Below, in pieces: positions 23,999 to 60,198 of a DNA stretch of 64,000 nt. Source of the DNA: Pyropia yezoensis (lineage: Eukaryota; Rhodophyta; Bangiophyceae; Bangiales; Bangiaceae); contig CM020618.1 of NCBI GenBank assembly GCA_009829735.1, positions 24,537,346-24,601,345 of the forward strand. Direction: 5' to 3'. The translations under genes and the position numbers were made by a program. Position 1 is the stretch's first letter, and every line of letters starts with the position of its first letter. The notes beneath the pieces are model-generated. The model had not been told where the DNA came from and searched no databases. It saw only the letters and a program-made list of their open reading frames with translations.

Positions 23999-25915
23999 CT
24001 AGCGTTCCATATGGCCACCCCCACCACTATAGGGACCGCCCGACCACGAACCCCCAGGGTCGTAGGCCGGTAGCGGAGGGGCGTAACCCACTCGGGAGGG
24101 CCCCGGAGTGGAAGCACTGGGAGGGGCCCGCCGACTCGCGGACCCATCCCCGTCGTAAGATAGATGTCCGGAGGTACTCCCTCCGTGACGCGGAAGCTGC
24201 TGCTGAGTCGACAGCAGCCGTTGGACAAACTCGTGTCCAACCGCGAGGCGAGTGACCTCAGCTGCCAATGACTGTCGCGCCGTGGCTGAGTCGCCCGACG
24301 CGAGGAAGTGACTGACACGCCGGGTGACCCAAGCCAACGTGTCAAGGGAGGCCACGAGTGAGGCCTCCACCGTGGCGTCATACATGATGGCTCCCAAGTT
24401 GGGAAGCATCTCGCCAACGCCACGCGCAATCGGCATGGGTACCGGAGTTCGGACCCGTAGCGAACCCAACGCCACGTCGGGGAAGGGCTCGAGGAACTGG
24501 AAGGGTGGAGCCTGAGTCGGCTCCACACCCCCCGAGGTCGGAGTCGCGACCCGCGGGGAAGACGTCGGCACAGCTCGCCCGCGGCTTCGAGGGGCTCCTC
24601 GATGAGCACCACGACGAGTCGTCGCCGATGATGTCGCCCACCCAGAGCCAGGGGGCGACGTAGAGGGAGTAACCCCCTCTGCGTAGGGAAGGGAAGAGTC
24701 CCCCAACCCCTCACGCAAGAGCAGCTGCCCCTGCACCAGAGTATGGGTGACATGGACGAACTCCCGGGGTGGCTCACTCTCCAACCCCGGCTCTGGACGC
24801 TTGTTGCGGCGGAGGAAGGGTTCCAGCTGCGCCCAATCGAGTCGATTGTGCAGGGTGACCATACCCTTAAGGAGGAACGGAGCCAGGTCCCCCGCGCCCA
24901 AGGCTAACCAGTGGAAGCCAAGGGTTTCCATACCCTCCACCAGAGCCGGTGGGAGGTGCCACAGGTAACCCCGATGGACTACATCGGAGTACCAGCCCCG
25001 AGCCACCACGACCACCCAGTGCGTGGCGAGGTAGGCGAAGACCCGGTTACCCTCCGAGCTGGAGCGTAGCACGGAGCCAAAGTAGGCAACGAGGAGGGGG
25101 ATCCGAGCCGGAAACCCACAAGGTACCTCCACTGTCTCCCACCACCCTGGGAGAAAAGGGTACTGGTGCTCACGCTCCTCCAGAGGTACGTGGGTGAACT
25201 CCACCCGCGACCCGTGGATGAGGAAGCCCGAGGAGCCCCGGAGTCGGAACTCCTCTCGCACCACGCCGTGTTGGGCGTGGGCGTCCTCTCCGCCCAGGTA
25301 GGCACGGGGAAGGGCACACCACTCGGTAGACACAACCGCGTGGGTGTCGTCGATCTCCTTGTCGCCCGACCCCAAGGCGAGGGAGGTTGACAACGCCTGG
25401 ACTTCAGGCGCGTCCGCCAGGCAGAGTAGCGCTGGTAGGTCGCAGACCACCCCATCAGGTAGAGTCACCTGGTTGGGGTACCGACGAGTCCGGCGGTACC
25501 ATACGTCGGTCCGCCGTGGCTCGGGGATGATCAAGTAGACATCCTTGAGCTTGCAGTCGGGAAGCTCCCCGACTGACTTGGGAGGCGCCCAGGCTCGGGG
25601 CCCCATAGGAGGACGGGGCCGCGGCGGGAGTAGCAGCCGTGACTCAGGAAGGCGGGGGATGGGAGTCACATCCCCTTCCGCCACCGGGTTGGAAGACCCA
25701 TCCCCCGGTGGGACCACGGCCGAGGGGGCAGTAGGAGGTGATGGGGCGGGGACGGCTGAGGCGGCCGCCTCCGACCCTCGCCCGGGACGAGTCGTCTCCA
25801 TGGCCGACCCCCGGCTGAGAGACTCCTCAGTCCCGAGGGCCTCCTCTCCCGTCCGTCGCTTGTCCGACAGAGACGTCGGAGACGGGGACAAAGGCCGACT
25901 CGGCTCACCCGCCAT
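23999..25915 (-). CDS. Extra antisense gene of W (unknown function)
   Basis: Minus-strand gene between pol and the 3' LTR, convergent with pol. The frame is open from 26491 but its first 190 residues are low-complexity; I take the ATG at 25915 (MAGEPSRPLSPSPTSLSDKR), giving 638 residues. The N-terminal quarter is disordered and Ser/Pro-rich. A folded-looking core contains WWETVEVPCGFPARIPLLVA, YFGSVLRSSSEGNRVFAYLATHW and RGYLWHLPPALVEGMETLG. A later block reads LVQGQLLLREGLGDSSLPYA. The C-terminus is Gly/Ser/Pro-rich. The core aligns block by block with the antisense gene of family X at 58255-60198. No known domain recognised; not a gag, envelope or pol fragment as far as I can tell. Confidence 0.75.
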   Translation of the reverse strand: MAGEPSRPLSPSPTSLSDKRRTGEEALGTEESLSRGSAMETTRPGRGSEAAASAVPAPSPPTAPSAVVPPGDGSSNPVAEGDVTPIPRLPESRLLLPPRPRPPMGPRAWAPPKSVGELPDCKLKDVYLIIPEPRRTDVWYRRTRRYPNQVTLPDGVVCDLPALLCLADAPEVQALSTSLALGSGDKEIDDTHAVVSTEWCALPRAYLGGEDAHAQHGVVREEFRLRGSSGFLIHGSRVEFTHVPLEEREHQYPFLPGWWETVEVPCGFPARIPLLVAYFGSVLRSSSEGNRVFAYLATHWVVVVARGWYSDVVHRGYLWHLPPALVEGMETLGFHWLALGAGDLAPFLLKGMVTLHNRLDWAQLEPFLRRNKRPEPGLESEPPREFVHVTHTLVQGQLLLREGLGDSSLPYAEGVTPSTSPPGSGWATSSATTRRGAHRGAPRSRGRAVPTSSPRVATPTSGGVEPTQAPPFQFLEPFPDVALGSLRVRTPVPMPIARGVGEMLPNLGAIMYDATVEASLVASLDTLAWVTRRVSHFLASGDSATARQSLAAEVTRLAVGHEFVQRLLSTQQQLPRHGGSTSGHLSYDGDGSASRRAPPSASTPGPSRVGYAPPLPAYDPGGSWSGGPYSGGGGHMER

Positions 25916-26918
25916 CACGCGACCAACCTTGACCGACTCGGTGAGGTTGAGCACGGGGGGGGACACGACCCGCTCCCCCTCCGACGACAACCAACCTTGA
26001 CCGACTCGGTGAGGTAGAGCAAGGGGGGGGGACACGACCCACACCCCCCACCGACAACGAAGAAGCCCGACACAAGGGGCAGCGCGGGGAAAACACAACC
26101 CCGCCGACGAAGAGAAGGGGGGGGGAACACGACCCGCGCCCCCACCGACAACGAAGACGCCCGACACAGGGGCGGAAGGGGGAAGACACCACCCCAACCA
26201 ACGACACCAACCGCACGGCGGGAAGAGACAGACCCGCCGACGCGAGGGAGCAGCGGCGGGAAGGCACACACCCGCCCGCACACACGAAGGGGAGAGAAGA
26301 CCCCGCACCGGCGGCCGAGTCCCACCGCCGGCGACCGAGTGCAACACCCCCAACTCGGGGTGCGCACACCCCTCAACCCTGACTAGAAAGGGGGGGAAGG
26401 AGTGAGGAACACCCCGCAGAGAGCCAGCTGGGGGTGGATCGAGCTGAAGGGGGGGACACAACCCGACCCCCCGAGAGCAACCGTACCCCAACTGAAGGGG
26501 CAGGTGCAGGTCGACGTTCCGAGTGAGAACGTCGACGCCCTACTCCTCCAGTTGAGGGGCAGGGGGTGTGGCGGAGGTACGCCGACACCCAGGTTAGGGG
26601 GCTCACCCACACGTGAGTCCACCCGTGGAGCACCCTGACCAGGTGGGGGACGACTTTCCCCCACACCTGTTTCGCGTGGAGGGGGCTCCTCTACCCAGTG
26701 TCAGGGCAGAGAGCGCACCCCACGGAGAGGGACTGCCTCTCCCGGAGGGCCCCGCCGGACGCGAGTGCAACCCCGGCGTAACCCTGGTGCACGCTAGACG
26801 CCAGCGATGCACCGTACTTTGCATCTCAACTCGGGAATTGCATCCTCCTCTCCCGGTCACTGCGACTCGCGCTGATTGGACGTCCACCGGGACGGCTGGA
26901 CTTTTGAGAAGGGGGAAA
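25916..26918. other. Spacer of W with G-rich degenerate repeats
   Basis: About 1 kb between the start of the antisense gene and the 3' LTR. It holds repeated pieces such as CCTTGACCGACTCGGTGAGG (near 25926 and 25994), GGGGGACACGACCC and CCGACAACGAAG between about 25,920 and 26,180. It probably contains the promoter of the antisense gene. No separate gene is supported. Confidence 0.5.
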
Positions 26919-27457
26919 TGTGGGAGATTGGGCCGGAATTCGGTACCAATACTTTGAAGATTCGGGTCAAGTGGACCTGACCGGAAGTCGAAATTCACCC
27001 GACCCACGATGGTGAAACTTCTGACTTCTGGACGGAAATTCGACTAGGACTTCCGACATACTAGAGCAGGGTAATGCTGCTGGTATTTGTTTCTTGGGAT
27101 TTTTGCACGGGAGCCAGACGGATTTCTACGCTTTGAGTTCTTTGCATGTGGAGTGATATGATTGGTTTGTTTGAGGGTTCATTTTCTGAGTGTTTTGAGG
27201 GGTTGCGTGAGCGTGTGAGGAGGGTTGATAAGGAGGGACAGCAAGGCAGGGAGGGCCCACCTTGGCTGGCCAAGCAAGAAAACACCGTCTGGCTCCGACA
27301 CATCTTGTTCGTGCCTTGGTGAGTGGACCCGCTCACCACACGCAAGTTCCGTGTTCGGCTGTGTGGAGGTGCTTGCTTCCGGTGTCCCAAGTTGGGATAT
27401 CGGCAATACTCCTCTTCCTTCCCTGACTCGGGGTTGGTGGTTGGGAGTACTGCTACA
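26919..27457 (+). repeat. 3' LTR of W (539 bp)
   Basis: Same length and sequence as the 5' LTR. Its right edge joins the transposase gene at the CCCCT target duplication. Confidence 0.95.
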
Positions 27458-27462
27458 CCCCT

Positions 27463-29851
27463 CAAACTCCCCAGAGACAGCAGTGTTGGCCATCAGCGAG
27501 ATGATCTCGGACACGTCCATGTGGGCGTGGTCAAACGGAGTCACCACGCCGTGCGCCCGCCGGCGCACCTCCGCAATCGCCTCCGGCGGAAGCACGTTGG
27601 CTTTGAGCCAGCAGTTTGCCAGCTGCTCCGCGGGCGTTGCGCTCCACTCCTCGAGTATGATTCTCGCCGCGTCCATCAAACGGGCTTGGCCGCCGACGTC
27701 CAAACCCCCACCACGTGGCACACGGGGCGGCGGGGCTCCCGAGGCAACCAGCGCGTCAATGTTCGAAACCACCCGCTGTAGCAAGCAAAACTTGTACCGA
27801 CGCTTCAAAGCTGCTATCACCCCGGCATCGAGAGGTTGAAAGACAGCCGTCGTGTTGGGTGGCAGTTCGATAATCGTGACTTGTGGGTCCACAATGGCAC
27901 TGTGGCAGCCGAGGTTGTCCATTATGAGGTACACATGACTGGCCGTCCGCTGTCGAATCGCAGGCAAGAATACCTCCTTAAACCATCGCTGGAACACAGA
28001 GGAGTCCGTCCATGCAGAGCGTTGGGAGAAGTATGGCAGGGGGCAACGGTTACCCGGCCCCATGAAGCACAGTGGCTGCGCCGCCTTGCCAATCATAGTC
28101 ACCGGGAGCTTTACCGACCCTGTTGCAGTGCAACGCAAAGTGAGGGTCACGTGATCCTTGCTCTTCATCGCCTTCGACCCGCGCTCACGCCGACGGTCCT
28201 CCACTGGTACGTACGAGCGGGATGGCGAACCGCGGTACAGCAACCCAGTTTCGTCGACGTTGTAGATCAAATCAGGGTCTACGCCTCGTAGCTGGCGACG
28301 AATGTCGTCCATCCGCGCCGCTGCCTCCTCCACATTGGCTGAAGCGCCGGCGCCGTTTAAAGCAACGCTGGCCCATCCGAAGCGTCGTGCCCAATTCTGC
28401 AGGTAGCCATTGGAGGCCGAGAAATTGGTGACGCCCAGAGAAGTAGCAATCTGCAAAGCCTTGCACCGTAGAATCGCGAGGGAAAGCGGCGCACGTTTCC
28501 TGCCCCGGCCACGCACAGCGTGGCACCAAGCAGCCAGTCTCGAGTCAATTTCCGCGAAATCAGTCGTCTTCGTAGTCACGGCAGTGGCCGGCACCCCAGC
28601 CACAGCTCTCTCGAGGTAGACGCCACGACGCCGGTAGATGTTTCGCAGGGCGGTGTCGGAGTACGCCCCGCCTAACTGCCAGGAGATATAGCTCCATGTC
28701 TTGCCAGTGTCCCGCCAGCGGATCACGCGAAGCTTTGTATCGAGAGACATGGGGGTCCGTGCTCTCCGCCCCCCCCCCACAGCACGGGCCGGAACCCTGG
28801 CCCGCGGCGGTGTCGTAAGCACGGCGTGTGCGGTCACGGCTGCGACGTGGGCAGCCGCCCTTATCCCGCTCGACCACTCAGGCGGTCCGCCAGGATGTGC
28901 CAGAGCAACCGTGGCCTCGGCCGCTGCGGCGGCCGCGTCAACAGCACAAGCGATCGCGACGGGTGCTCGCTGGGTAGGCACCGGCGCGCACTGCAGGTGT
29001 CCCGCGGACGGCCCCGTCGGGGCGATCGCTGAGTCCGCCGCCGCGGCTGCGGGGGGCACGGACGCCGCCAACACAGGTCCTGCGGGCAGGGAGGCAGCCG
29101 ACTCAGGCACGGTGGCCAGGCGCGCCGACGTAGCCGCGGTCGCCATTAACACGCCCACAGGCTTCACTGGAGACAGGGCGTGCGCTGAGGCACTTCCCGG
29201 GTCTCTTAGCGGGGCGCCGGCTGGGGCCCGCCCCCTGCGAGCCCCCGGGGACGCCAAGGGAACGGCGGCATCCCGGGCCATCAGCCCGGGAGCCGGAGAG
29301 CTCCCCGCCGCGCCGCGTGGCGCAGCGGCCGCCCGCGTGCCCACCGTTGCCTGCGCCGTGTCGCTCTCGGAGCCAATATCGGGAATGGCGGCCACTGGTG
29401 TACGGGCAAGCCGCCCAGCCCGAGAAAGGGCTGTTGTGGCGGCTGGGGGTGGCGGGTGGGTCATCACACCAGCGCCAGCACGCAGGGCCCCGGCCCCAGA
29501 CCGGTCCGCGCAGCCGCCGATCCCGAGAGTAGCCGTCTCGCGCTCTCCCGGATCTGTCCTGTGACCCGGGCCGGGGGCCGTGCGCCGTCGCGATCCGCGC
29601 CCCCCCACCCCGCCGCGGCCCCGGCCGGGGGCCATACCGGCCGCGATCCGCGCCAAGCCGAAAGGCTGGTAATCAGGAAAGGGTAGAACGGCGTCGGTGA
29701 AAACAGGGGTAGCCCAATCGGGACGGTGGATGGGGATGAAGCGCAAGGAAAGCGTTACAAATGAACGAGGGTGGATACCGCACACGGTGCTCGGCAGGTG
29801 GGATCCGGGTGGCAGCGCCGCGTCGCGCCATGTGCGTTGGACGACAGCCAA
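27463..29851 (-). CDS. pogo-like DDE transposase, main part
   Basis: Transposase of the DNA transposon, cut by the W insertion. The recognisable core starts at an ATG at 28750 (MSLDTKLRVIRWRDTGKTWS), a helix-turn-helix of Psq/CENP-B type. A second DNA-binding block follows (SASNGYLQNWARRFGW), then the DDE_1 catalytic domain with all three acidic residues: NVDETGL near 28.25 kb, IMDNLGCHS near 27.91 kb and PLDAGVI near 27.83 kb, preceded by LPPNTTAVFQ. Upstream the frame is open to 29851 as an Ala/Pro/Arg-rich stretch; the true start is uncertain. The family cuts and pastes its element into TA sites. Coding is lost where W enters after GEFEG and resumes on the far side of W. Confidence 0.85.
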
Positions 29852-30929: not shown

Positions 30930-33796
30930 AGGTCAACCTTCCTCGGTCCGTCACTTGCCCCACGGATGAAGGTTTACCTTGGTGTAAGCCTCAGGTTACT
31001 TTGAAATTATCGGAGTTAGTCATCTCCTTCAAGTAAAACTTGTTAAAGGCAGTAGTCCACTTAGTGTGCCTAAGTCCGCTCCAACTTAGTGAACCTAAGT
31101 CTTGCCGAGTCCATGTGACACCCTACGTAGTAGGTATAAGCCTCACCCCCCAACAGCCGAAGTCGGTGTCGGTTGGGTTGTTACAGTGGGCGTCGTCGCC
31201 TCATGTAAGGCATGAGAAGTTGGCGGGGTATATTCGCCGCCTGTTCCCAGGTGGGTGAGTCGTATCCGACCCACATCACCTTGACGTACCAGGGTCCTGG
31301 TAGGTCCGGGTCGGTGTGTCCGACCACGCTCTCTACTTGGTATGGAATCCCATCCGGCCCCACCGGGTCATCTGACCGGTGGGTTGTAAGAGCTTCATGT
31401 AGCACTCCAGCCGGTACCCGCTGAGGCTGTTCCGGCTTCGGAGCAGGTGTCACATCATTGAGATTGATGCGTCGTATCTTCGTATCGGAGTGCATGATTA
31501 CAGAGTGATCATCTCTGTGTAGGATCTGGTACGGTCCCTTGACCGGTTGCATAAGCATGTTCCCTCGGAGCTTCTGGTGTCTGATGTAGACCCAGTAACT
31601 TGTTACCAGGGTTGCGTTGCGTACCCGTAGTCGGGCGTCGAAGTTCTTCTTGTATCGAAGTTGTGTACGGTCAAGGGCACCCTTGAGCTTAGGTATTATC
31701 CACGATAGCTTGGCCAACCAAGCTAAGTGGATCCGTTCGGCCGGTCGGCCCTTCGGTATGCCATACCGAGTGCATCTGCCCGGTGGCAGCGTCAGATTAC
31801 CGACGCCCATTGGCATGACCCATTCCAGTGGAGCAATGCTGGTACTTCGGTGGGGCCCGGCATTGTATGCCAGTTTCAATACGGACAGAAGCCTGTCCCA
31901 CCTGTTCTTGAGTTCCGCCACATAGCATTGGAGCCTCTTCACGATGGTGCGGTTGAACCGCTCCACCTGCCCGTTGGATTGCGGGTGGTAGTCGGATGCC
32001 CGACGTGGTTCGATACCGAACATGCCCATGACCTTAGTGCAGAATGCTGACGTAAGGTTTGCTCCGTTCTCGGAGAGGAGCTGCTTCATTTCTCCGTAAG
32101 CACCTATCCAGTGGTCAACGACTGCGTTCATGATCGTGTAGGCCGTGTCGTTCGGGATCGCTACTGCTCGTGGCAGCTTAGTAAAGCGGTCCGACATAAC
32201 CAGGATGTACCTGTTCCCTTCTTCCGTTACCGGAAGTGGCCTGAGTATGTCGATAGCGACTTGCTCGTTGGGCCCATCCGGGGGGAATAGTTTGATAGCG
32301 GATGCCCGGCGATGAAGACTCATACGATTCCGTGCACACGGGTGGCATCCCCGCACGTGGTCGACTACGTCGACGGCCATTGCTGGCCAGTAGAAGAACC
32401 TCCGCATTGCTGCGAACATGCGCGAACCCCCCGGGTGTCTGGCTGTAGGGTTCTCGTGTTCTCGTTCCATGACGGCTTGTCGTAAGGACACGGGAACCAC
32501 GACTTGATGCCGTCCATCGGGGGGTGCCCGCCGGTATATGAGTCCGTCCTCATTCTCGGAGAAGATGCCGGCCGTGCCGGCCAGGAGGTTAGCGCGATGG
32601 CGTCTACAGTCATCGTCATTGGCCTGTGCCTCGCGGAAGTCCGCGAGGGTTAATGGGCACGCAAGGTGTGCCATGCTATGGTCAACCATACCTTGGGTGG
32701 CATTACCCACCATGCAAACCGGTACAACAGGGATGTCCTCGTCCACCTTTCGGGTATCCCCGCTCGGTGTGTCGAGTCGCGACAGCGCGTCTCCCAGATG
32801 ATGGGTAGAGCCGGCCTTACATATGGTCCGGTAGCCGTGCTCGGCCATCTTCAGCCTCCACCGGGCTAGCCGTCCATGGCTGTCGGAATCCTTGTCACCG
32901 AGGTTGAGAAGCCATAGTAAAGGTTCGTGGTTGGACCTCACGATGAACCTGTATCCTTCCAGGTATGGCCGGAGCAGTTGCACTGCACATATAACTCCGA
33001 GGCACTCGCGCTCGGTGGCACTATAGTTATGCTCAGCCGGGTTGAGTGTCCTGCTACCCCTCCGGATGTCGGTCCGGGATAGCATTATGGGTACCGATGA
33101 TGGTCTCTCCCTGTAACAGTGTGCATCCCACTTGGGTATTGCAGGCATCGACGTCGATGACGAAGGTCCCGCGTCTATGCGGCAACGCCAGCACGGGTGG
33201 GGCTAGCAGAGCTTGCTGGAGCAGCTCGAATGCCTCTCCCTCGCTGGGCGAGGGAGGTTGGAGTACCTTTGGCAAGGCGCTGCTCGTCAGAACCGTTAAC
33301 GGTTTGGCTATACGAGCGAAGTCCTTGACGAACCGTCGGTATACGTTGCACATCCCCAGGAAGCTTTTCAGCTGTGTCTGGGTGGTTGGGTATCGCGCAT
33401 CCCGGAGTGCCCGGGTATTAGCTTCGAGCACTCCCAGTTTACCTTGTGTGATCTGGTGACCCAGATACTCGACGGTCTACTGAAAGAAGGCGCACATCTT
33501 GAGGCGCAGGGTTACCCCGGCGTTCCGCAAGAGGGTCAGTACCTCGTCGACATGTTGCACATGGTCATCCTTGTTACGCGAGAAGACGATGACATCGTCC
33601 AGGTACACCGGGAAGTTACGCCACTTCATTCCCGACAGAATAATGTCGATGGCCCGCTGGAATGTGGCGGGGGCGTTGGACAATCCGAAGGGCATCCTTA
33701 GGAACTCTTACACTCCACTGTGACAGACGACCGCCGTCTTGGGGATATCCTCCTCAGCCACTGGGATCTGCCAGTACCCAGCATTGCAGTCGATAG
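30930..33796 (-). mobile_element. Ty3/gypsy chromovirus, family Z, truncated copy
   Basis: Minus-strand 3' half of an element. From high to low coordinates: reverse transcriptase from the LDCNAGYWQIP region at the edge near 33.79 kb, RNase H near 32.9 kb, integrase with zinc-binding and DDE core at about 31.9-32.6 kb, and a chromodomain (YVKVMWVGYDSPTWEQA) at about 31.2 kb. About 250 bases after pol (from TGTAACAACC, minus strand) also occur after pol in the plus-strand Z copy and probably hold the 3' LTR, whose exact end I could not fix. The 5' part is lost where the X LTR starts at 33797. It is broken, with at least one break besides the truncation. Confidence 0.85.
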
Positions 33797-34265
33797 TGTG
33801 GCAAAAACCTCTCGCACACACGACACCCAAGTTGGGGCGGTGTACAAGGGCTGCCTCCCGTGTCGGGGGAACCGGAAGAAGTGCAAGTCGCACACACTCT
33901 ATCCCTGTTGTGGGGCAATCCCCCCACTGACAAAAAAAGAAAATGGCATGTGGTCCAACAGTTTCTTGGTTGGGACGGGGAAGCAGGGCCAAGCCCCGCT
34001 GTCCCTCCCCTTATCCCCCCAGCGTCCCCTCAGAATCTCGCCACTCAGAATCTCCCGCCCCAGCACCTGCCCACCGGGCCACACGAAAATTCAAGACGAT
34101 AAATGCAAAAAACCTCAAATCCAAGTTGGATTTACTACTAAGCTAACTATCCAAAACTTAGGGAATACGGACCCAAATGCAGGGGGAGGAACGGGTCAGG
34201 CTAGTGGCCTGCCGCCCCTTGCATGGCACGTGTTGCCCTCCTACCTGGGGGTCAATACTGCCACA
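33797..34265 (-). repeat. 3' LTR of X copy D (469 bp)
   Basis: TGTGGCA at 33797 to TGCCACA ending at 34265; matches the LTR of copy A. The five bases before it (GATAG) have no matching copy after the other end of the chimera. Confidence 0.9.
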
Positions 34266-37200
34266 CTCCCCTCTCCTCAGTTCCGATCGACCCGGTCGGC
34301 CCTGTGAGGGGGTGCGTAAACGCACGTCTCGGCGTTGGGGGCGCGACTTGCTGTCCCCCCTCGAGTACGTAACGTGGACGTGGAGGCGGTCACGTTGACC
34401 GCCCCTCTCCTCAAGCTTGCCTACTCGGCAGCTTGCTCTCTCCGGTTCTCACTTCACCACCACCAACACATCCCCTTCACCTTCCCCTTGGCCGCCCCAC
34501 GCTGGGGAGGCCACCCATCTACCCACGATCCGAGCCCCCCTCAACTCGAGGCGGGTCTCGTGCCGCTGCAACCAGGGCGTCTCTCCCCAACTTGGAAAGA
34601 GCCATGGCGACCCTGGGGGTTGAGACCGACTCTCTGGATGAACGTATGGAGGACACCTCCTACGGTGCAGCGCCCGCCGGGACTTCCGGCGGGGGCTCCG
34701 CGATCGCTCCGGGGGATGGGACTCCCGCGTCACCCGGCTTTGGGTTGACGGCGGTATCTCCCCCGGAGGCGGGACAAGTTGTCCCACGTGAGGCCTTGGG
34801 GCGGTGGTTCTACCCTGCTTGGCCTCTTGAATGAGGAGGGGTTGACTGTTCTTCGCTGTGGCCGACTTGGCACAGCGATGAGTCGGGCATGGGACTGCCT
34901 ACGGGAGAATTATCCCCGTAGGGTCGGGTTCCCTGCCGGCTTCAGGACGGACCAGTTTGTCTTCCTGGACGATGACGAAGTCGAAGACGTACAGCGGGCC
35001 AAGGCCATGGTGGACCGCGGGGGAACTACCCCGGGTCCCGGCGACTTGTCGACCTTTACTTGGGACGCGGTGGCAACTCGCCCCCCGTACCTTCACGAGG
35101 CCGATCCGCACACTCATCACTTTGATGTGCGGATGGAGAAGGACTTCCGACGAGGTCCCTACTTGGTGACCTCGGCTCAACTTGAGTTTCCGCAGCAGTC
35201 CGCAGCTAGTAAGAAGGAGCACTACCCCAAGAAGCCCGAGTGGTGACCTCAAGTTGAGGTCCCCTACGGGTTCCCTGCGTTGCTACCACGGTTGCTCGAC
35301 CACTTCGGCTCCGTCATGTTGACGGCTAGCCCGGATCACCTGGTGTGGGCCATGTTGGCAACTCAGGGGCTCCTCGAGGTCATGTCGACCTGAGTGTCTT
35401 GTGTCCAGCGGCGGGGATGCTCTTGCATCTTCCCCTTCGGCTTATCTAAGGATTGGAACAGCTCACCCCTCAGCTAGTTGCTGAGGGGTGCTCATCAGGA
35501 CAACTCACTCTACTTGAGGAGATGCTCCATCTCCACAAGTTCATCGAGTGGGAGAGCATCGAGCACAAGTTGCGCCGCCCCACCCGCGGGCCCAAGGACG
35601 ATGGCGCACTTCGCCAGATCGTATTGGTCGGTCGTGAACTTCACGACGGCCGTGTGGTACTACGAGAGGGGCTGGGCATCGGGGACTACCCGTATGCCCC
35701 GGGGGTGGATCGCCACACTGCGCCGCCCCCGGACAAGGCCATAGTAATGGCCGTGCCCTCTCACGATGACTATATGACTCAACCCACTGCGGGGGCCCCG
35801 AGCAGGAGTCGCAGTTACACTCGGGCACCGCCACCTCGGCGTGCCCCTCCGCTTCCTCCTGTTCCCTACCAGCCGCACGGGGACATCCCGATAAGCGTGG
35901 CCGTTGAGTCGTCCACTCCGGTGTCCCCCAACTTGAAGGCCACCGTTCTGACGGTTTATCCCCAGTTGGTGTTACCGGCCACGCCTCTGACCTCAGAGAT
36001 GATGATCACCACGTTGGTGCGCACCATTTCCTGGTTGGCCGCGTCAACCGCATCCCTTCAAGTTTCCGAGACTCCTCAACTTGAGGAGCGCGTTCGTACT
36101 GCGGTGGCGACCGCGAGTCGGTGGCGGGGTTTATAACGGCCGAGTTGGCTCTCATCGGGGCTATTGTGCCCCGACCAGCCTCACTTGGGCTTGGCAAACG
36201 TCGGGCGAGCCGGGCATACTCGCCTCCTCGCCGTCGTCGCCGACTCTCGCGGCGCTCTCCCTCCGTATCGGAAGACGAGTTGTCTTATTCCGTCTCGGAG
36301 TCCTCTACCCCGTCAGAGTCGGAGTCGGTCCGGCGTCTGCGTCGCCAACTTGCGCGCAAGACCAAGCAGAAGGGTAGCCGCGGTCGTCGCCACTTGCGCG
36401 ACCGTGAGGGGCGCGACGGTTCCGACTTGGAGCCGCCGGCCCCGCCGACTGGTGGGGAACGTTATCGGCGTGGGTCTCGCCGCTCGCCTCCACGTGAGGG
36501 CGAGGGCCGTGGGGTTGGAGAGTCTAGCATGCATGCCTAGTTGGCAGCTGCCTTCGTTGTGAGAGTGTGAGGGTTAGGGCTGTAGTTAAAAGTTACTCTG
36601 CGTACCACTTCGACTTGAAGCACTCTCCGGGCACTGTTACTCGGCCTTCCCTCCCGTTGAGGGGGGGCTGTTTGGGTCTATATCATTCCGGGCACAGTAT
36701 GCCCGGACCTTCTCAGCGGGAAGGTCCTCCACATATTCCCACGTATCATCCTTGGCCTTATAGCCGAACCAACGCACCCTCAACATGAGGCGGTTAGTGT
36801 CCTCATCCCAGCCGTGGTCGATGAACTTATCGAACACGTACTCCTGCGGACCATGTATGGCCGCAGGCAGCGAGGGCAGCCGCTACGCTTCCAACGCACG
36901 CGCCCAAGCTGGGTCGATTGCAGGCGGTGGTGCAACTTTGACCACGTCCTGTCCGTTTACTGTGCGGACCCCATCGTCACTTTCGATGGTGAACCGCCGC
37001 CCATCAGTACGAAGGACCTGGTACGGCCCCTTCGTCTGGAATACCAACTTACCCCCAGTTGGGGTGTGTGAGTGAACCAGTACTCAGTCTCCCTGCTCGG
37101 GGATATGCTTAGCATTACGCACCTTTTTGTCAAAGGTACGCTTGTAGCGCTTTTGTGCTTTGTCCATCTCAGCCCTGACTTTAGGGATGAGTTTTTCAAG

Positions 37201-41500: not shown

Positions 41501-41809
41501 TGTACGCCCAAGCGTACAGTTCCTCGAATGGGGAGCCATCCCCCATTCAGGTCAAAGTACAATATATTCTCCAGCTCTCCTAGAGGCTGGAGCCCCATTC
41601 CCTTCGGGAGCAAGGAGCTTCGAATCAAGGAGGGCCCGCTGCCGGTATCCAGGACAGCGTGCAAATAATCGCGCAAATAACATTTTCCCGTTTGACCCCC
41701 TTAGGGAGTGCCAATAATGCAGGGATGTTCGTTGGGGGGCGGCGCAAAATCCTCTTAGGCCCCCCCGTATCAGGGGACGTAGTGGGAGAAGCTCTAGGGG
41801 GACCGCCCC

Positions 41810-47849: not shown

Positions 47850-48369
47850 CCCGTCTCCGTCTATGGGGTTCGGGGGACCCCGCACGCGGGGGAAGAGAGC
47901 TGTCCTCTCAGTGAGGGGGGTCCCCCGGGGGGGGGGGGTGGGGCGCGCCCCACGTCGACAGCGGGCACCGCGCCGAGCCAGGCGGCCAACGGGTCTCGCG
48001 GCCGCCGTTGGCGGCCTCGACGGGGGGCGCCGCAGCGCCAGCGGCATCGTCCTAGCCACCACCGCGGACACACAGGAAAACAAGCAGTAACGCAGCGGAG
48101 AAAAAAAAAAAGACGGCGGGTGGAGGTCCAGACAGCGGCGGGTACATACGTGCATACAGCTGGGCCGCCGCTGCCCCCCACCCACCCACCTCCCGGCACA
48201 CGATATACCCAGCGGTGCCCGGCGAAGCACCCCCCCCCCCCCCGACCTCATTCAACTCCAGCCACCCCGATGGCGCTCAACCCCCATGGCACCTCCCCCC
48301 CCCCCCCCCCCCGCCCCCCCCCGCCAGCCACCAACGCCGTCCCCCGGGTGCACACCGCCTGCCGGCCAC
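47850..48369. other. Spacer downstream of the HOOK-domain gene
   Basis: Contains runs of C and G, a 12-base A tract near 48,100 and C-rich stretches around 48,230-48,310. Several frames are open only because of composition. A possible exon near 47,940-48,055 (minus) is mentioned with the previous feature. Confidence 0.3.
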
Positions 48370-52850: not shown

Positions 52851-53077
52851 CGGTAGGGGGGGCCCGGCCGGGGTGGGGGGGGGCGGGGGGCGGGGGGGGG
52901 GGGGGGGGGTGCGGGGTTGAGAGAGGGGTGGGGGGGTAGGGACAAAAAAGGGGGGGATGGGGAAAGGCAGGGGGAAGGAAGGGGTGTGGACTCCCCCAAC
53001 AGGGATACGCCGGTGCTCCCCCCGCACCACTCGGACCGTGCCCTACCTGGTCGGATGCACGGGCCGCCGCCGCCGCC

Positions 53078-53143
53078 GCAGCTGCCCCTGCTGACGCCGC
53101 CGCCGCCGCCGCAGCTGCCCCTGCTGACGCCGCCGCCGCCGCT
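53078..53143. repeat. Two tandem 33-bp units
   Basis: GCAGCTGCCCCTGCTGACGC with GCC repeats occurs at 53078 and 53111. On the minus strand it would code for Ala-rich repeats, possibly in an upstream exon of the HOOK-domain gene. Confidence 0.6.
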
Positions 53144-54112
53144 GCCGCCACTGCCGCCGCGGCCGCTGCTGCCAGGCAACGCGGTGGGAGGCAGCGGGAA
53201 GGGGGGCAGGGGAGGTGCGGCCCCGGGGACGTGCCGCCGCTACCCACCGCGGAGGAAGAAAGGAGGGAGGGGGGGGGGGGGGGGGGAAGCTTGGGAACGA
53301 CAACGACGACGGGGGTGTGGTAGGTAGGTAGGAGGAAACACGGGGGTTGGCCGGGGCAAGGACGCCGGGCGGCCGCCGCAACCAGACGCGCGGTGGTGGC
53401 GTCGGCGGCGGCAGGGCGGCACGCGCGGCGGCCGGGGCGGGGGACGCGACCGCGGCTGCAAGGCGGCACCCGCGGGGCCGGGCGGGCGGCCAATCCCGAC
53501 CCCCGCCGCCGCGGCTCGGCGGGAAGGGCCCCGTGTGCCGCGACGCGCGCGGGTGTGTCGGTGGGGGGGGGGGTCGTCGCCGACGCGGGTGGGAGGCACA
53601 CCCCGACGGCCAGGTCAGCCGTCGAGTCGGCGGCCCCGCCAGAGCACCGCAACGGGAAGGCTGGGGGGGGGGGAGTCCCGGGAGTGCGGAAGGGGGAGGC
53701 GGCGTCAGCGACAAAGGAGGGGCGTGTGCCTGCCGTGCCCCTTGCTCGGCGTTGGCGCCACCACCACCCCCACCCCCCCCCCTTCGCAAGGGTGGTGTAG
53801 CGTGGCCACGCACCGCCGTCTCCGCCCGCCACCCTCCGGTCCCCCCCCAAGGGGCCCCACCCCCCCGCCCGCCCACGCCCCGCCGCCAGTCTCCAGGGGG
53901 TGTTGGCAGGGCCGGCGGCCGCGGCCAGCCAGTGGCTGGCTTGGGGTGGGGGCACCCGGCGAACACCATTGGCTGTCCCCACCGCCGTGGCACCCCGTCG
54001 GGGGCGGTCGCGGTCCGTCCCCGGCGGGGCGCGTCTGCTGTCAGCGGCGCAACTGTCAGCAACAGATTGGGGCGGTGTGCACCCCCAGTTAAGGGCGGAC
54101 ATACAGGTCTAA

Positions 54113-54139
54113 CACGTGGCGAAAAAATCCCCGCCACGT
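54113..54139. promoter_or_regulatory. Inverted pair of G-box-like ACGT elements
   Basis: CACGTGGCG at 54113-54121 and CGCCACGT at 54132-54139 form an 8-bp inverted repeat with a 10-base spacer. CACGTGGC is the plant G-box bound by bZIP/bHLH factors. Its place between two divergent genes fits a promoter role, but this is inference. Confidence 0.3.
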
Positions 54140-54562
54140 TAATTTCCAGATGAATGCCGCGATCTCTCATCGGCGTGTCCCGCCGAGCTACCAGCGCGTC
54201 TGTTCCCCGCGGTTGCTCCATGGAACACCCTCCTCCTGCACGCTTCATTCTCTGACTGTATCGCCCACGCCGTCCCCCCAACATTTCCCCCGTCCGGTTA
54301 GACTGTACCATGTTGCCGCCACGTGCAGGAACCCCTGACGCTCCTGATTGTTTTTTTGTGCCCCCCCCCCCTCCACGGTACGTCTTTGCTTGCCCAAAAA
54401 GCAACCACCTAGCAAGCGCGCTGTGTTACCTACCTTCTTCTATGAGATAGAGCAGCTCACGGAGAGCAACTTGACTAACATCAGTACCCACTTTTTCTCA
54501 CTGCTCTGCCCACTATGGCTTGCTGACTGATTTTTTCTTTTTTTTCTCGGCCCACCCGTCAG

Positions 54563-56416
54563 ACACATCGCGTGTGTACGGGTAAACGAGGTTTTTATTG
54601 GCGCTGCTCCGGCTTTTGTGTGCGTGGTGTGCCTGCTGCCGTTTTTACGGCCGGGCCGTGGAACAGAGCGCTGGCAGAAGGCTGTACGAGCTGGCGTCAT
54701 CGGCGATGACGATGCCGTCCAGTTTTGCTCGTCTGTGTCTGTGCGGCGGTGCGTCCTCGCTGGTGGTAAGGACACGAACGGAGTGCGCCTCGGGACGTGC
54801 TCGGCTTGCTACTACAAGAATCCCCCAGCTGCTACGAGGAAGGGGTGCCCCAACCCGTGCCAATCTCTGGTGCACAAGCCTGGGTCATCCCCTCGGACGG
54901 CCGCGGCATCCCCTGGGCCGGCCTGCCTCCCCTTCCTGTGGAATCCTGATAAGGCCGACGTCCAACGCCAACTACCTCCCCGTCAGCGAGACAAGGTTTG
55001 CAAGGGTTGCAAGTCCAGAGCGGAACGAGCTAGTCGGTCGGCACCCCCTACCGCGTCCGCGGCACCCCCTCCCGCGCCCCCTTCCCCACGACGTCAGGTC
55101 TCACTGACAAGCGTGTCAGTGTCACCAGCAGTGGCACCAGCTCCCCATCAGCTCTCGATGGTGACGGGGCCCTCATTGACGATTGAACCAGACAGTCACA
55201 CCATCAAGGGGCTCATCGACGCCCATGTCGAGAAGACAAAGCCGGAGGAAATCCGTGTGACCTTTGTCAAGGGTGCAAGAAGGATCTACCGGCGGGTCAT
55301 CATTCCGAGAAAGGCCCTCGTTGGGGAGCGGCAGGACCGCCGACGGCGGGCCGACGCGATTGCCCAGGTGTCCACCACCCTGTGTGTCAAGCCAGCCGAT
55401 ATCGCATCGGTCATGGTCCCCATCCTGCGGAGGGCCCAATCGCAGGGGGCCGCGATTGCCCCGTTCCACTCCCTTTCCGTCCGGGAGCAGACGCGGCTCA
55501 AGGTGGCTAAGCGCATCAGCGGGGTCACTTGGGCCCACATACGGGCCTCTTTGGGCGGGGCATCAAGTGGCCTGGCGTGCCGAGAGGTCTTACGAACTGA
55601 CTTACTGGCGGCTGGGGCGGAGAGCGCGGCTCAAGTGACGGCGGATGCTACTGGGGCGTATCTTATCAGTCCTCGAGCGGCGGTCCAAGCATTGCTGGAC
55701 CAACTGGTGGCAGAGGACAACTTTGACGAGCGACCAGTGCACGTGTGCACGGCTGTACATGCCGGCGGCGCACCCGCGCGAGGCGGTGCTGACGCGATGG
55801 TACAGGTGGACCATGGCCCAGGGCTGCGCGCGGTCGAGTTGACTGTTGACGGGGTGGCCGATGCACCCCTGGGCTACAACCCAGCCGCAGGCACCCCCCC
55901 TCGCGCCGGCCCCGGCCGCCAGCCAATGGTGGTGGACACGGCGGCGGCGGCGGCGGCGGCGGTGGCGGAAGGGGCGGGTGCCGCCAGAGCCGCGGCGGCG
56001 GGTGGGGCGCGTGCCGCGGGAGCCGCGGCGGCGGGGGGGGCGCGTGCCGCGGGAGCCGCGGCGGCGGGGGGGGCGGCGGCGGGGGGGGCGGCGGCGGTGG
56101 GGGCGGCGGCGGGGGGGGCGGCGGCGGGGGAGGCGGCGGCGGGGGCAGCCGTGGCGGCGGCGGGGGCGGCCGCGGTGGCGACGGCGGTGGTGGCGGCAGC
56201 GGCGGTGACGGCGGCGGGGGCGGTGGCGGCGGCCGCGGGCAGGGCGGCGCCGGGAGCGCGCGCGACAGCGGGGGACGCCGTCGCCGGCACCGCGACGCCC
56301 GATGCGGCCAGCCCCACCGCGGCCAGCGCGGAAAGTAATGGCGGCCTTACCTCCGGATGTCCCCCCAAGCCACCCGTTCAACTGCTGTTTGGTATGGACA
56401 AGGGGGGAAACGAGAG
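54563..56416 (+). CDS. Cys-rich unknown protein, truncated by X copy F
   Basis: The frame is open from a probable acceptor at 54562/54563; the first exon(s) are not identified, and no good ATG opens this frame. The N-terminal part is Cys-rich with pairs typical of zinc binding: FVCVVC, then LGTCSACYYKNPPAATRKGC, then KVCKGCKSRAERASR. A Pro/Ser linker follows, then a basic helical region (RRIYRRVIIPRKALVGERQD) and a folded-looking block (LSVREQTRLKVAKRISGVTW, then HIRASLGG). From about 55,930 it is nearly pure Ala/Gly. The frame meets the X LTR at 56417, so the 3' end lies beyond copy F, off-window. Function unknown; DNA binding is a guess from the Cys pairs and basic region. Confidence 0.5.
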
Positions 56417-57916
56417 TGTGGCAAAAACCACTTACACACACGGCACCCAAGTTGGGGCGGTGTACAAGGGCTGCCTCCCGTGTCGGGGGAACCGGAGGAA
56501 GTGCAAGTCGCACACACTCGCCTCATGGGAACTGGATTATGTCCCAGCCAACTATTCCCATTGGCTGGGAACTAGGCAGTTCCCAGGGTGTGAGTTGTTG
56601 ATTGAATCCTTACAGTGCATGACCACTTGACTAGGTCAGTGGATAGTTCAGCAGTATACTTATCGAGTGGCATCATAGGGTGATGCTTCAATAGCGAACA
56701 TGGGTGTTTCATCTTTGAATGAACATTTTGACCAGAAGTAGTGCGGTCTCATCAACAAGTACGTACTTCGATGAGTTCGACACTTTAGCCGGTCGCAGCT
56801 GTGCGGTTGAGGCCTCTTCGTGTGGTCTTCCTCAAGCTCACCGAAGCTCACCGATGCTCACCACTACCCTCTGCGGGAACGGTCCTGTGCGTCTTCCCTG
56901 GAGTCTGCTCTCCCCAGCGGCAGTACCGGCGCGACCACGCACCCGTCGCGCGGTGGAGCGGGCACATTCGGTTCACGGCATGGCTGTGCCTCCGTAGGTA
57001 CCTACGGACGACGTCGTCAATATTGGGGCGCCTCCTCGTCGAGCTGCGGTACGCGCCCCCTCTGTCCGCCTCTGCCTGTTGCAGCGCCTACAGCTGATGC
57101 CATGTGCAACTGTTTGTGAACCCTGCCCTCCCCCTCCGCCCCCCCTCCCCCCTCCCCCCCGCCACCCCATGGCGCCACCTTGCCCCCGCCGCCCGCCGCC
57201 TTCGCGTCGGCGGCCGCGGTGGCCCCGCCCCAACGGCAGTGGCAACAGCGGGGACAGCAGCGGCGTGCCCCCCTCCCTGTCCCGCACCCGCTCCCGCGCC
57301 CGCCTCCTCCCACGAACGCACCTCCTCCCCCCCCGCTGTCGTCGCTACCACAGCCGCGCGCGGAAGAGAGGCGGGCGGAAAGATGCTTCGAAACTTCTGA
57401 AGAAACGTTCTGGGCTGAAAGCATCGTGTCGAACGCCTTAGAAGTTAAGTATTGCAACTAGGCAGTGCTGGCAGTGTTATTCTCCTGTTCACAGGGTACG
57501 TGCACAGCGGGCTACTTCCAGTTCCCAAGTACCTACAGGCCTTCACACTCTATCCCTGTTGTGGGGCAATCCCCCCACTGACAAACAAGAAGATGGTGTG
57601 TGGTCCAACAGTTTCTTGGTCGGGACGGGGACGCAGGGCCAAGCCCCGCTGTTCCTCCCCTTATCCCCCCAGGGTCCCCTCAGAATCTCGCCACTCAGAA
57701 TCTCCCACCCCAGCACCTGCCCACCGGGCCACACGAAAATTCAAGACGATAAATGCAGAAAACCCTCAAATTCGAGTTGGATTTACTACTAAGCTAACTA
57801 TCCCAAACTTAGGGAATATGGACCCAAATGCAGGGGGAGGAACGGATCAGGCTAGTGGCCTGCCGCCCCTTGCATGGCACGTGTTGCCCCCCTACCTGGG
57901 GGTCAATACTGCCACA
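56417..57916 (-). repeat. 3' LTR of X copy F, split in two
   Basis: First part 56417-56519, second part 57551-57916. Together they give the 469-base length of the copy D LTR. The CACACTC at 56513-56519 is repeated at 57544-57550 around the inserted DNA. Confidence 0.88.
56520..57543. mobile_element. Non-autonomous DNA insertion in the X LTR (1,024 bp)
   Basis: Flanked by 7-bp direct repeats CACACTC and lacking any transposase. The motif TGGGAACT occurs close to both ends: 56526-56533, 56566-56573, inverted at 56578-56585 and inverted again at 57520-57527. Ends show GCCT near the left and AGGC near the right. Subterminal repeated motifs are typical of hAT-like elements, which make 8-bp target duplications (here 7 certain). 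The interior has a C-rich stretch at 57,120-57,180 and no supported gene. Confidence 0.6.
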
Positions 57917-58254
57917 CTCCCCTCTCCTCAGTTCCGACCGACCCGGTCGGCCCTGTGAGGGGGTGCGTAAACGCACGTCTCGGCGTTGGGGGCGCGACTT
58001 GCTGTCCCCCCTCGAGTACGTAACGCGGGTGTGGAGGCGGTCGCGTTGACCGCCCCTCTCCTCAAGCTTGCCCACTTGGCAGCTTGCTCTCCCCGGTTCT
58101 CACTTCACCACCAGCACCACATCCCCTTCACCTTCCCCTGGGCCGCCCCACGCTGGGGAGGCCACCCGTCTACCCACGATCCGAGTCCCCCTCAACTCGA
58201 GGCGGGTCTCGTGCCGCTGTAGCCAGGGCGTCTCTCCCCAACTTGGGGAGAGCC
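57917..58254 (+). other. Spacer before the antisense gene of X copy F
   Basis: 338 bases between LTR and the antisense ATG. The same spacer is in copy D (34266 onward). Pyrimidine-rich, and likely to hold the promoter or leader of the antisense gene. Confidence 0.4.
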
Positions 58255-60198
58255 ATGGCGACCCCGGGGGTGGAGACGGACTCCCCCGATGAACGTATGG
58301 AGGACACCTCCTACGGTGCAGCGCCCGCCGGGACTTCCGGCGGGGGCTCCGCGATCGCTCCAGGGGATGGGACTCCCGCGTCACCCGGCTTTGGGTTGAC
58401 GGCGGGATCTCCCCCGGAGGCGGGACAAGTTGTCCCGCGTGAGGCCTTGGGGCGGTGGTTGTACCCCGCTTGGCCTCTGTATGAGGAGGGGTTGACTGTT
58501 CTTCGCTGTGGCCGACTTGGCCCAGCGATGGGTCGGGTATGGGACCGCCTACGGGAGAAGTATCCCCGTAGGGTCGGGTTCCCTGCCGGCTTCAGGACGG
58601 ACCAGTTTGCCTTCCTGGACGATGAGGAGGTCGAGGACGTTCAGCGGGCCAAGGCCATGGTGGACCGCGGGGGAACTATCCCGGGTCCCGGCGACTTGCC
58701 GACCTTTACTTGGGACGCGGTAGCAATTCGCCCCCCGTACCTCCACGAGGCCGATCCGCACACTCATCACTTTGATGTGCGGATGGAGAAGGACTTCCGA
58801 CGAGGTCCCTACTTGGTGACCTCGGCTCAACTTGAGTTTCCGCAGCAGTCCGCAGCTAGTAAGAAGGAGCACTACCCCAAGAAGCCCGAGTGGTGGCCTC
58901 AAGTTGAGGTCCCCTACGGGTTCCCGGCGTTGCTGCCACGGTTGCTCGACCACTTCGGCTCCGTCATGTTGACGGCTAGCCCGGATCATCTGGTGTGGGC
59001 CATGTTGGCCACCCAGTGGCTCCTCGAGGTCATGTCGACCTGGGTGTCTTGTGTTCAGCGGCGGGGGATGCTCTGGCATCTCCCCCTCCGGCTTATCCAA
59101 GGTTTGGAACAGCTCACCCCTCAGCTAGTTGCTGAGGGGTGCTCATCAGGACAACTCACTCTACTTGAGGAGATGCTCCGCCTCCACAAGTTTATCGAGT
59201 GGGAGAGCATTGAGCACAAGTTGCGCCGCCCCACTCGTTGGCCCAAGGACGATGGCGCACTTCGCCAGTTCGTATGGGTCGCTCGTGAACTTCACGACGG
59301 CCGTGTGGTCCTACGAGAGGGGTTGGGCATCGAGGACTACCCGTATGCCCCGGGGGTGGATCGCCACACTGCGCCACCCCCGGACAAGGCCATAGTTATG
59401 GCCGTGCCCTCACATGATGACCATATGACTCAACCCACTGCGGGGGCCCCAAGTCGGGGTCGCAGCTACACCCGGGTCCCGCCACCTCGGCGTGCCCCTC
59501 CGCTTCCTCCTGTCCTCTACCAGCCGCACGGGGACATCCCGATTAGCGTGGCCGTTGAGTCGTCCACCCCGGTGTCCCCCAACTTGGGGGCCACCTTCCT
59601 GACGGTATACCCCAAGTTGGTGTTACCGGCCACGCCTCTAACCTCAGAGATGATGATCCCCACGTTGGTGCGCACCATTTCCTGGTTGGCTGCGTCGACC
59701 GCAACCCTTCAAACTTCCGAGACTTCTCAACTCGAGGAGCGCGTTCGTACGGCAGTGGCGACCGCGAGTTGCGAGTCGGTGGCGGAGTTCATGACGGCCG
59801 AGTTGGCTCGCATTGGGGCTATTATGCCCCAGCCAGCCCCACATGGGCGTGGCAAACGTCGCGCGAGCCGGGCATACTCGCCTCCTCGCCGTCGTCGCCG
59901 ACGCTCGCGGCGCTCTCCCTCCGTGTCGGAAGACGAGTTGTCTTACTCCGTCTCGGAGTCCTCGACTCCGTCAGAGTCGGAGTCGGTCCGGCGTCTGCGT
60001 CGCCAACTTGCGCGCAAGACTAAACATAAGGGCAGCCGCGGTCGTCGCCACTTGCGCGACCGTGAGGGGCGCGACGGTTCCGACTTGGAGCCGCCGGCCC
60101 CGCTGACTGGTGGGGAGCGATATCGCCGTGGGTCCCGCCGCTCGCCTCCACGTGAGGGCGAGGGCCGTGAGGTTGGAGAGTCTAGCATGCATGCCTAG
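58255..60198 (+). CDS. Extra antisense gene of X copy F (unknown function)
   Basis: Plus-strand gene within a minus-strand element, convergent with pol and ending about 110 bases from it. The ATG at 58255 (MATPGVETDSPDERMEDTSY) is the first one with sense context; an open frame continues upstream to 58084. 647 residues: acidic Ser/Gly-rich N-terminus; core with WWPQVEVPYGFPALLPRLLD, HFGSVMLTASPDHLVWAMLA and RRGMLWHLPLRLIQGLEQL; then LHDGRVVLREGLGIEDYPYA; then LVRTISWLAASTATLQTSET. The C-terminus is very basic and Ser/Arg-rich (PPRRRRRRSRRSP, VRRLRRQLARKTKHKGSRGR), suggesting nucleic-acid binding or nuclear entry. The core is homologous to the W antisense gene. No known domain recognised. Confidence 0.8.
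   Translation: MATPGVETDSPDERMEDTSYGAAPAGTSGGGSAIAPGDGTPASPGFGLTAGSPPEAGQVVPREALGRWLYPAWPLYEEGLTVLRCGRLGPAMGRVWDRLREKYPRRVGFPAGFRTDQFAFLDDEEVEDVQRAKAMVDRGGTIPGPGDLPTFTWDAVAIRPPYLHEADPHTHHFDVRMEKDFRRGPYLVTSAQLEFPQQSAASKKEHYPKKPEWWPQVEVPYGFPALLPRLLDHFGSVMLTASPDHLVWAMLATQWLLEVMSTWVSCVQRRGMLWHLPLRLIQGLEQLTPQLVAEGCSSGQLTLLEEMLRLHKFIEWESIEHKLRRPTRWPKDDGALRQFVWVARELHDGRVVLREGLGIEDYPYAPGVDRHTAPPPDKAIVMAVPSHDDHMTQPTAGAPSRGRSYTRVPPPRRAPPLPPVLYQPHGDIPISVAVESSTPVSPNLGATFLTVYPKLVLPATPLTSEMMIPTLVRTISWLAASTATLQTSETSQLEERVRTAVATASCESVAEFMTAELARIGAIMPQPAPHGRGKRRASRAYSPPRRRRRRSRRSPSVSEDELSYSVSESSTPSESESVRRLRRQLARKTKHKGSRGRRHLRDREGRDGSDLEPPAPLTGGERYRRGSRRSPPREGEGREVGESSMHA

Follow-up and report, generated by a model that had tools for sequence, protein, structure and literature searches.

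Elements at the locus

The window (the whole stretch of DNA analysed, 64,000 nucleotides) comes from the red alga Pyropia yezoensis and contains two retrotransposons, W and X, each carrying an additional gene between pol and the 3' LTR on the strand opposite to pol. The features are:

10744-10748 and again 27458-27462: target duplication of W, 5 bp, CCCCT (flanks read)
10749..11287, plus: W 5' LTR, 539 bp, TG..CA, 100% identical to 26919-27457
11590-13368: second W gag copy, on the other side of a 500-N gap
18064..19842, plus: W gag ORF, 592 aa
19881..23870, plus: W pol ORF, 1329 aa, with RT, RNase H, integrase and C-terminal chromodomain (Pfam, PDB chains)
23999..25915, minus: W antisense gene, 638 aa (ATG 25915, stop 23999)
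24650..25504, minus: conserved core shared with X, residues 138-422 of the W antisense protein (located by tblastn from the X protein at E 2.4e-42, and by BLASTP)
26907..26918, plus: purine-rich tract adjoining the W 3' LTR (read from the sequence)
26919..27457, plus: W 3' LTR, matching the W 5' LTR
33797..34266, minus: LTR of X type belonging to the decayed X copy, 94.9% to 5114-5582
34604..36537, plus: decayed X antisense gene (DNA alignment to the X gene)
57544..57917, minus: X 3' LTR, truncated, 98% to 5210-5582
58255..60198, plus: X antisense gene, 647 aa, with an arginine-serine-rich C-terminal tail (ATG 58255, stop 60198)
58537..59379, plus: conserved core shared with W, residues 95-375 of the X antisense protein (BLASTP, tblastn)
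60310..61530, minus: X pol end, integrase and chromodomain (Pfam; Heterochromatin protein one, E 2.6e-4)
61564..63816, minus: X pol, RT and RNase H, a separate ORF (Pfam); the X element extends beyond the window

Judged by their sequences, W and X belong to the Ty3/Gypsy elements with a C-terminal chromodomain on integrase: they have LTRs with TG..CA ends, a Gag zinc knuckle and the order RT-RNase H-integrase, with protease left unscored. W pol follows this order and aligns to the Ty3 polyprotein over residues 324-1194 (E 9.9e-128). The zinc knuckle of W gag scores 20 bits, just below the Pfam cut-off of 20.8, and that of an X-type gag at 3048-4790 is above it. Pfam Chromo is placed at the integrase C-terminus below its cut-off (16.7 and 18.3 bits vs 25.1). 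The W chromodomain matches PDB chains of DNA (cytosine-5)-methyltransferase 1 (E 9.8e-5; the matched part is presumably that protein's chromodomain), CLR4 (8.3e-4) and Chromodomain Y-like protein 2 (0.011), and the X chromodomain matches Heterochromatin protein one (2.6e-4) and CLR4 (7.7e-4). The pol proteins of the two elements are about 60% identical. Since X pol in the window is broken into two ORFs, that X copy is not intact. In Ectocarpus, chromodomain Gypsy lineages are reported to be unrelated to chromoviruses (PMC12477816). A tandem gag-pol arrangement in W was rejected: the repeat (11389-17362 and 17863-23836, 99.95%) sits either side of exactly 500 N and is therefore treated as an assembly matter, not biology.

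The antisense genes and their homology

Both frames lie where the earlier note had placed them. The other five frames of each gene region hold 5-25 stops, those on the pol strand 12-20, and none of the 2000 sequences simulated for each gene under a first-order Markov model was open along its whole length, which together rule out chance. The decayed X copy that had been claimed at 34.6-36.5 kb is real, and its gene differs from that of X by a 7-base gap and two 1-base indels; among 643 codon-matched positions, 3 are stops.

The W and X antisense proteins are homologous (BLASTP, 105/288 identical, 36%, E 4e-45), and this homology is confined to the core. The earlier note had described ordered blocks shared by the two proteins; these blocks are also visible in alignments with five and with eight further homologues, some partial. 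In the C-terminal segment the W-X alignment is not significant. That segment can be aligned between the W types and the homologue P0008.

Copies and arrangement in the genome

Copies were fetched through the antisense gene itself, taking the 30 W and 30 X copies that scored best by protein. The gene is convergent with pol and has an LTR upstream in all 30 of each, so the arrangement claimed for the window recurs in 60 of 60 fetched copies. The gap between gene and pol is 135 bp in W and 118 bp in X, each in 29 of 30. Counts of 30-mers in the genome reached 1,193 for the X gene and 1,180 for X pol, and 106 and 126 for W; reversed-pattern controls gave 0 in all four cases. The core is thus not limited to the two copies in the window. 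Of the 100 listed W pol places, 23 are without a listed gene partner.

Each genome search scored only about 70-150 places. Among the best-scored places no third family nearer to the homologues P0003, P0008 or P0014 was found: the top-ranked places were W copies or near their identity, X copies also turned up in one of the searches with those homologues, and lower-ranking families may lie beyond the places scored. The earlier note had concluded that the gene was inherited from a common ancestor. The same place, strand and core in families with so diverged a pol support this, and transfer by recombination is also compatible; inheritance from a common ancestral element is the simplest fit to the sequences.

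Selection on the frame

In the 30 fetched X copies, shared variants of the gene comprise 75 nonsynonymous (N) and 160 synonymous (S) changes, an N/S of 0.19 of neutral; the value is 0.12 in the core (residues 94-376) and 0.23 in the adjacent pol. These ratios are lowered because the fetched copies are those scoring best by protein, as is seen in the singletons (0.54 in the X gene vs 0.85 in X pol). N/S is nevertheless lowest in the antisense frame (0.19 vs 0.32-2.82 in the other five), and in all four frame parts tested third positions vary and amino acids vary much less. The decayed X copy, chosen irrespective of protein score, gives dN 0.034, dS 0.144 and dN/dS 0.24. The X antisense frame is therefore kept by purifying selection as a protein gene. 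With the core present well beyond two copies, both conditions that the earlier note had named as refuting its claim have turned out in that claim's favour.

The W copies are too uniform, with too few variants, for W alone to say much on selection. Their 17 shared variants give an N/S of 0.51, vs 0.63 in the opposite-strand frame that shares third positions; dN/dS is 0.72 between W and copy L061 at a dS of only 0.023, and 0.34 for the older copy L062. W and X themselves (dS 1.75) are too diverged for a useful dN/dS. Conservation as a protein holds for the gene and is weak for W taken alone.

Features and relatives of the protein

Protein searches, which scored about 8,000 candidates each, returned relatives at 35-60% identity, the named ones from P. 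vietnamensis only; four of these are annotated as hypothetical proteins. With an E limit of 10, none of seven family members has a Pfam match, under HMMER filters that drop most weak matches, and a PDB profile search with the antisense protein gave no match. In NCBIfam, two families were each matched by one member (E 0.25 and 0.29), which is read as chance. TRP28 (PF04195) is matched by 0 of 7 members in Pfam, a result with which a remote relation below profile sensitivity is still compatible, and by nothing in the genome, in a search run without a positive control. Among viral contigs, 21 stretches matched a search pattern and none encodes a relative.

The linker that follows the core carries a net charge of +0.10 to +0.20 per residue in all six homologues that cover it, and the core -0.03 to 0. 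The X tail is basic and arginine-serine-rich, as had been noted (+0.15 per residue); the W-type tail and those of its relatives, at 0.00 to +0.03, lack this basic character. No transmembrane stretch was found in seven of seven homologues, two of them partial, the best 19-residue hydropathy mean being 1.57. Structure prediction gave a mean pLDDT of 36 for both the W and X proteins and so puts no fold behind any function.

Alternative explanations

Several other accounts of the gene have to be weighed. The protein could be a cytoplasmic structural or particle co-factor of Gag, serving packaging or particle maturation, or else a diverged second Gag; a core followed by an Arg-rich stretch does resemble a capsid with a basic tail in outline. 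This is unlikely, as the elements' own Gag is dissimilar (best BLASTP E 0.35, hhalign probability 0.09%) and a Pfam match, zinc knuckle included, is absent in all seven members; a Gag paralogue was rejected on these grounds. Considerably less probable is that the transcript rather than a protein is functional, annealing to the genomic RNA as double-stranded RNA and holding copy number down. An mRNA from this strand would be able to pair with the 3' part of the genomic RNA, and such a role is discussed for plant elements (PMC7264820). However, selection on X acts on codons in each of the four frame parts tested, and the core is kept between families at 36% identity. RNA as the only role is disfavoured, and an RNA role may exist beside the protein.

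Even less credence attaches to a host gene recently picked up by W or X elements. The hypothetical proteins of P. vietnamensis could be read in this way, and a single host paralogue may be compatible with the limited number of places scored per genome search, but two diverged families carry the gene at one and the same position and orientation, pol and LTR lie beside it in every fetched copy, the protein has no Pfam family, and the divergence between W and X disfavours a recent capture. An envelope-like gene is close to refuted: the slot from pol to the 3' LTR is that of env, but the strand is the opposite one and a hydrophobic segment near transmembrane level occurs in none of the seven homologues, two of them partial. 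For these reasons the env-like candidate was rejected. Finally, long open frames are commoner in regions of 64-66% GC, as here, and the frame might have been a by-product of composition or of a sense-strand gene; the stops in the pol-strand frames, the simulations and the minimum of N/S in the antisense frame refute this.

A third gene with a possible nuclear role

The preferred explanation, to which a probability of roughly 0.6 is given, is that W and X carry a third protein-coding gene, kept by selection as the X copies show, whose product is a soluble accessory protein acting in trans, most likely in the nucleus. The nuclear role taken by itself is held at slightly under even odds. Transcription would start on the side of the 3' LTR and run towards pol, under a promoter that may be situated in the 3' LTR itself or in the 0.3-1.0 kb separating this LTR from the ATG of the gene. 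Its predicted product would consist of a low-complexity N-terminus, the conserved core of about 285 residues, the arginine-rich linker and a C-terminal part that is helical by low-confidence prediction. Working in trans inside the nucleus, this soluble protein would associate with nucleic acid or chromatin, and it could aid the element RNA or integration complex, or shield the element from host silencing.

The argument for trans action comes from W copies that have lost sequence. A shortening of 1,118 bp, of which about 560 bp or more must fall within the antisense gene, is common to 9 of the 100 listed W gene places. The shortened copies would equally be explained by a dispensable gene, or by one copy spread by other means; they are dispersed on three contigs and are for that reason counted for trans action.

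Antisense genes in other retrotransposons

Antisense genes between pol and the 3' LTR are already known from Retand/Grande elements and Boty, so this kind of gene is not new. The Retand lineage of flowering plants is described as having an antisense ORF (aORF) with a TRP28 domain (PF04195), for which DNA binding is suggested, and as a non-chromovirus lineage of eudicots and Liliopsida (PMC11963269), whereas W and X are red algal chromodomain elements whose protein has no TRP28 match in the seven members. Grande gene23 and RIRE2 aORF-3R occupy the same slot on the antisense strand, and according to a review (PMC7264820) a promoter lying upstream drives transcription of the Grande gene, whose product is found in the nucleus. 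Those are plant elements, and the algal protein, which lacks a Pfam match, is set apart from theirs by description, not by sequence. The earlier note had rightly mentioned antisense ORFs in plant elements; it had left out brtn of Boty in the fungus Botrytis cinerea, an additional antisense gene reported by Zhao et al. in 2011 (cited in PMC7264820 and PMC8365987), which shares with W and X a non-plant host and is also compared by description only. A literature search largely without subscription journals turned up no description of this gene from red algae, Pyropia included. The protein family and the host group appear new for such genes, the nearest candidates having been compared by description.

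A wider proposal, more doubtful than the reading above, sees in the antisense slot from pol to the 3' LTR a functional niche that has been occupied independently on three or more occasions, namely in plant Retand/Grande elements, in fungal Boty and in chromodomain elements of red algae. The occupants would be unrelated nuclear proteins acting in trans, each expressed from a promoter of its own, and would keep element chromatin or RNA unsilenced. The Pyropia family would then be a new such protein, with about a thousand copies in one element family. If unrelated lineages repeatedly fill the same slot, it may serve a need common to retrotransposons, and Pyropia, with published transcriptome data, offers a place to test the idea. 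The over one thousand 30-mer matches in the X family provide enough copies to measure selection directly, on a protein that matches no described family in the searches made. With W and X, the range of antisense accessory genes comes to include red algae and chromodomain Gypsy elements. Plant chromoviruses, also chromodomain Gypsy elements, reportedly carry extra ORFs as well (described by Steinbauerova et al. in 2011), which are said to be rare and to lie 5' of gag; the gene of W and X lies instead 3' of pol, in antisense.

The antisense gene in elements W and X

An antisense protein gene is carried by two families of Ty3/Gypsy elements, represented in the window by W (plus strand) and X (minus strand). 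In both, the gene sits between pol and the 3' LTR on the strand opposite pol, as the earlier note had placed it, and the length of about 640 codons given there is close to that found.

10749-11287 and 26919-27457: 5' LTR and 3' LTR of W, 539 bp each, identical, ends TG..CA
23999-25915, minus strand: W antisense frame, between pol and the 3' LTR, 638 codons
57544-57917: 3' LTR of X, truncated; X begins here in the window and runs off the window end
58255-60198, plus strand: X antisense frame, between pol and the 3' LTR, 647 codons

W is flanked by the 5-bp repeat CCCCT, a purine tract precedes its 3' LTR and its interior is interrupted by a 500-N gap; the pol of X is broken into two ORFs. The remaining five frames of each gene region contain 5-25 stops, and 0 of 2,000 simulated sequences were fully open for either gene. 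The two proteins align with 36% identity over 288 residues (E 4e-45), which bears out the proposed homology. At a tblastn cut-off of E 1e-4, the W and X proteins and five homologues, used as queries against the whole window, matched nothing but W, X and the decayed copy of X at 34604-36537, already reported in the earlier note. The antisense gene was not seen by tblastn near other Gypsy sequences at 31.2-33.8, 44.4-46.7 and 38.5-41.8 kb, although these are fragments and so no proof of its absence.

Copies in the genome

In the 107.5 Mb searched (three large contigs of 43.6, 34.3 and 29.4 Mb), the best 70 of 2,367 candidates for the W protein and the best 68 of 3,577 for the X protein included 59 and 54 stop-free matches, respectively; being the best-scoring candidates, they over-represent intact copies, and two of the 70 W matches are neighbouring pieces of one copy. 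Among 30 W and 30 X copies fetched, all 60 have pol convergent with the gene and an LTR upstream of it. The gap between gene and pol measures 135 bp in all but one of the 30 W copies and 118 bp in all but one of the 30 X copies; the LTR lies 337-341 bp from the ATG in all 30 X copies and 1,004-1,006 bp from it in 21 of the 30 W copies. Genome-wide, 30-mers (up to 3 mismatches) matched 1,193 times in the gene and 1,180 times in pol for X, and 106 and 126 times for W, whose pol count takes in a doubled stretch at the assembly gap; all four reversed-pattern controls gave 0 matches genome-wide. From these near-equal counts, the gene occurs roughly as often as the accompanying pol, and its core is not limited to the two copies in the window, the case the earlier note had set against its reading.

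A shortened subtype of W was found by comparing 100 listed gene places (of 106) with 100 listed pol places (of 126). The distance between the gene and pol 30-mers is 1,738-1,749 bp in 65 of the gene places, exactly 625 bp in nine and different in four; 22 have no partner among the listed pol places, and 23 listed pol places have no listed gene partner. The 625-bp type, in which both 30-mers match exactly, lacks 1,118 bp. By arithmetic on window coordinates, at most ~555 bp of this is intergenic or pol, so at least ~560 bp of the gene is gone. The nine places are dispersed over contigs C1, C2 and C3 (2, 5 and 2). If these copies moved on their own, the protein was supplied in trans or is dispensable.

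Selection on the antisense frame

Variants were counted in 30 X copies (9 with stops) and N/S was expressed relative to the neutral ratio from the same mutation spectrum. Variants shared by two or more copies (N 75, S 160) give 0.19 of neutral for the X gene, with 0.28 for residues 1-93, 0.12 for the core (residues 94-376) and 0.20 and 0.25 for the remaining parts. The other five frames give 0.32-2.82; the 0.32 frame lies on the opposite strand, has its third positions in common with the X gene and contains 20 stops. Singletons in the gene give 0.54, a value biased downward because the copies were chosen by protein score, and the adjacent integrase-chromodomain stretch gives 0.23 (shared) and 0.85 (singletons). 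The decayed X copy in the window, which was not chosen by protein score, has dN 0.034 and dS 0.144. Purifying selection on the X frame is clear. The earlier note had proposed codon-level selection tests among intact copies; such selection is found in X, but W alone does not settle it: its variation is low, with 17 shared variants giving 0.51 of neutral against 0.63 for the other-strand frame with common third positions. Between W and other genomic copies, dN/dS is 0.34 for the older L062 and 0.72 for L061 (dS 0.023).

Descent and relatives

W and X are ~60% identical in pol (63% in its C-terminal part), 43% in Gag (W compared with the X-type gag at 3048-4787) and 36% in the antisense core. This order is what one expects under joint inheritance of a fast-evolving accessory gene, and to that extent agrees with the common ancestry claimed in the earlier note; recombination between families could also have brought the gene. 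Searches of 5.8 billion database proteins (~8,000 candidates scored in each) found relatives down to 35% identity with the W (8), X (1) and W-X alignment (13) queries. The four that bear a name come from Pyropia vietnamensis, where they are annotated as hypothetical proteins; the others are nameless. An N-terminal LGTEES motif occurs in five of seven alignment rows and is missing from X and one homologue (P0008). No relative was found in Pfam with the antisense proteins, in PDB with their profile or in the viral contigs searched. An antisense gene in this slot is of an already known kind; what seems new, within the literature and database searches made, is the family of the protein, its presence in a red alga and its occurrence in chromodomain elements.

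Protein features and possible function

The N-terminus is rich in P, G, S and A, the core is near neutral in charge and an Arg-rich linker carries +0.10 to +0.20 net charge per residue in all six homologues covering it. The W-type tail is rich in G, S and P and not basic; the X tail is rich in R and S (+0.15 per residue), matching the SR-rich basic tail noted before. No transmembrane-like stretch was seen in the homologues. Structure models of both proteins are poor (pLDDT 36), so only the helical character predicted in both for the core and C-terminal part is drawn on, with caution. The gene would have its own antisense transcript, and the protein may act in trans. The basic linker, the X tail, the absent membrane segments and the analogy with the plant element Grande point to a possible nuclear role involving nucleic acid or chromatin. 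The Grande antisense product is nuclear according to a review (PMC7264820).

Other features of the window

Near-identical gag-pol copies of W (11389-17362 and 17863-23836, 99.95%) lie either side of exactly 500 N (17363-17862); this run is an assembly gap, so the doubling is probably not real. A transposase ORF at 27182-29851 (minus strand), with DDE_1 and Tc5-type HTH domains, overlaps the W 3' LTR; possibly W was inserted within this ORF or next to it. Inverted fragments of another Gypsy family, 87-92% alike, occupy 31199-33806 (minus) and 44439-46719 (plus). The pol of a further Gypsy family (36694-41751, minus; 52% to W) adjoins a truncated X copy, an arrangement in which one RNase H-integrase stretch occurs twice. 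Several overlapping ORFs of 450-890 codons lie on both strands at 48215-56630, three of which had 0 matches when scanned against Pfam. A repeat array at 7658-9031, whose steps are 15, 33 and 48 bp and sums of these, lies within long overlapping ORFs on both strands.
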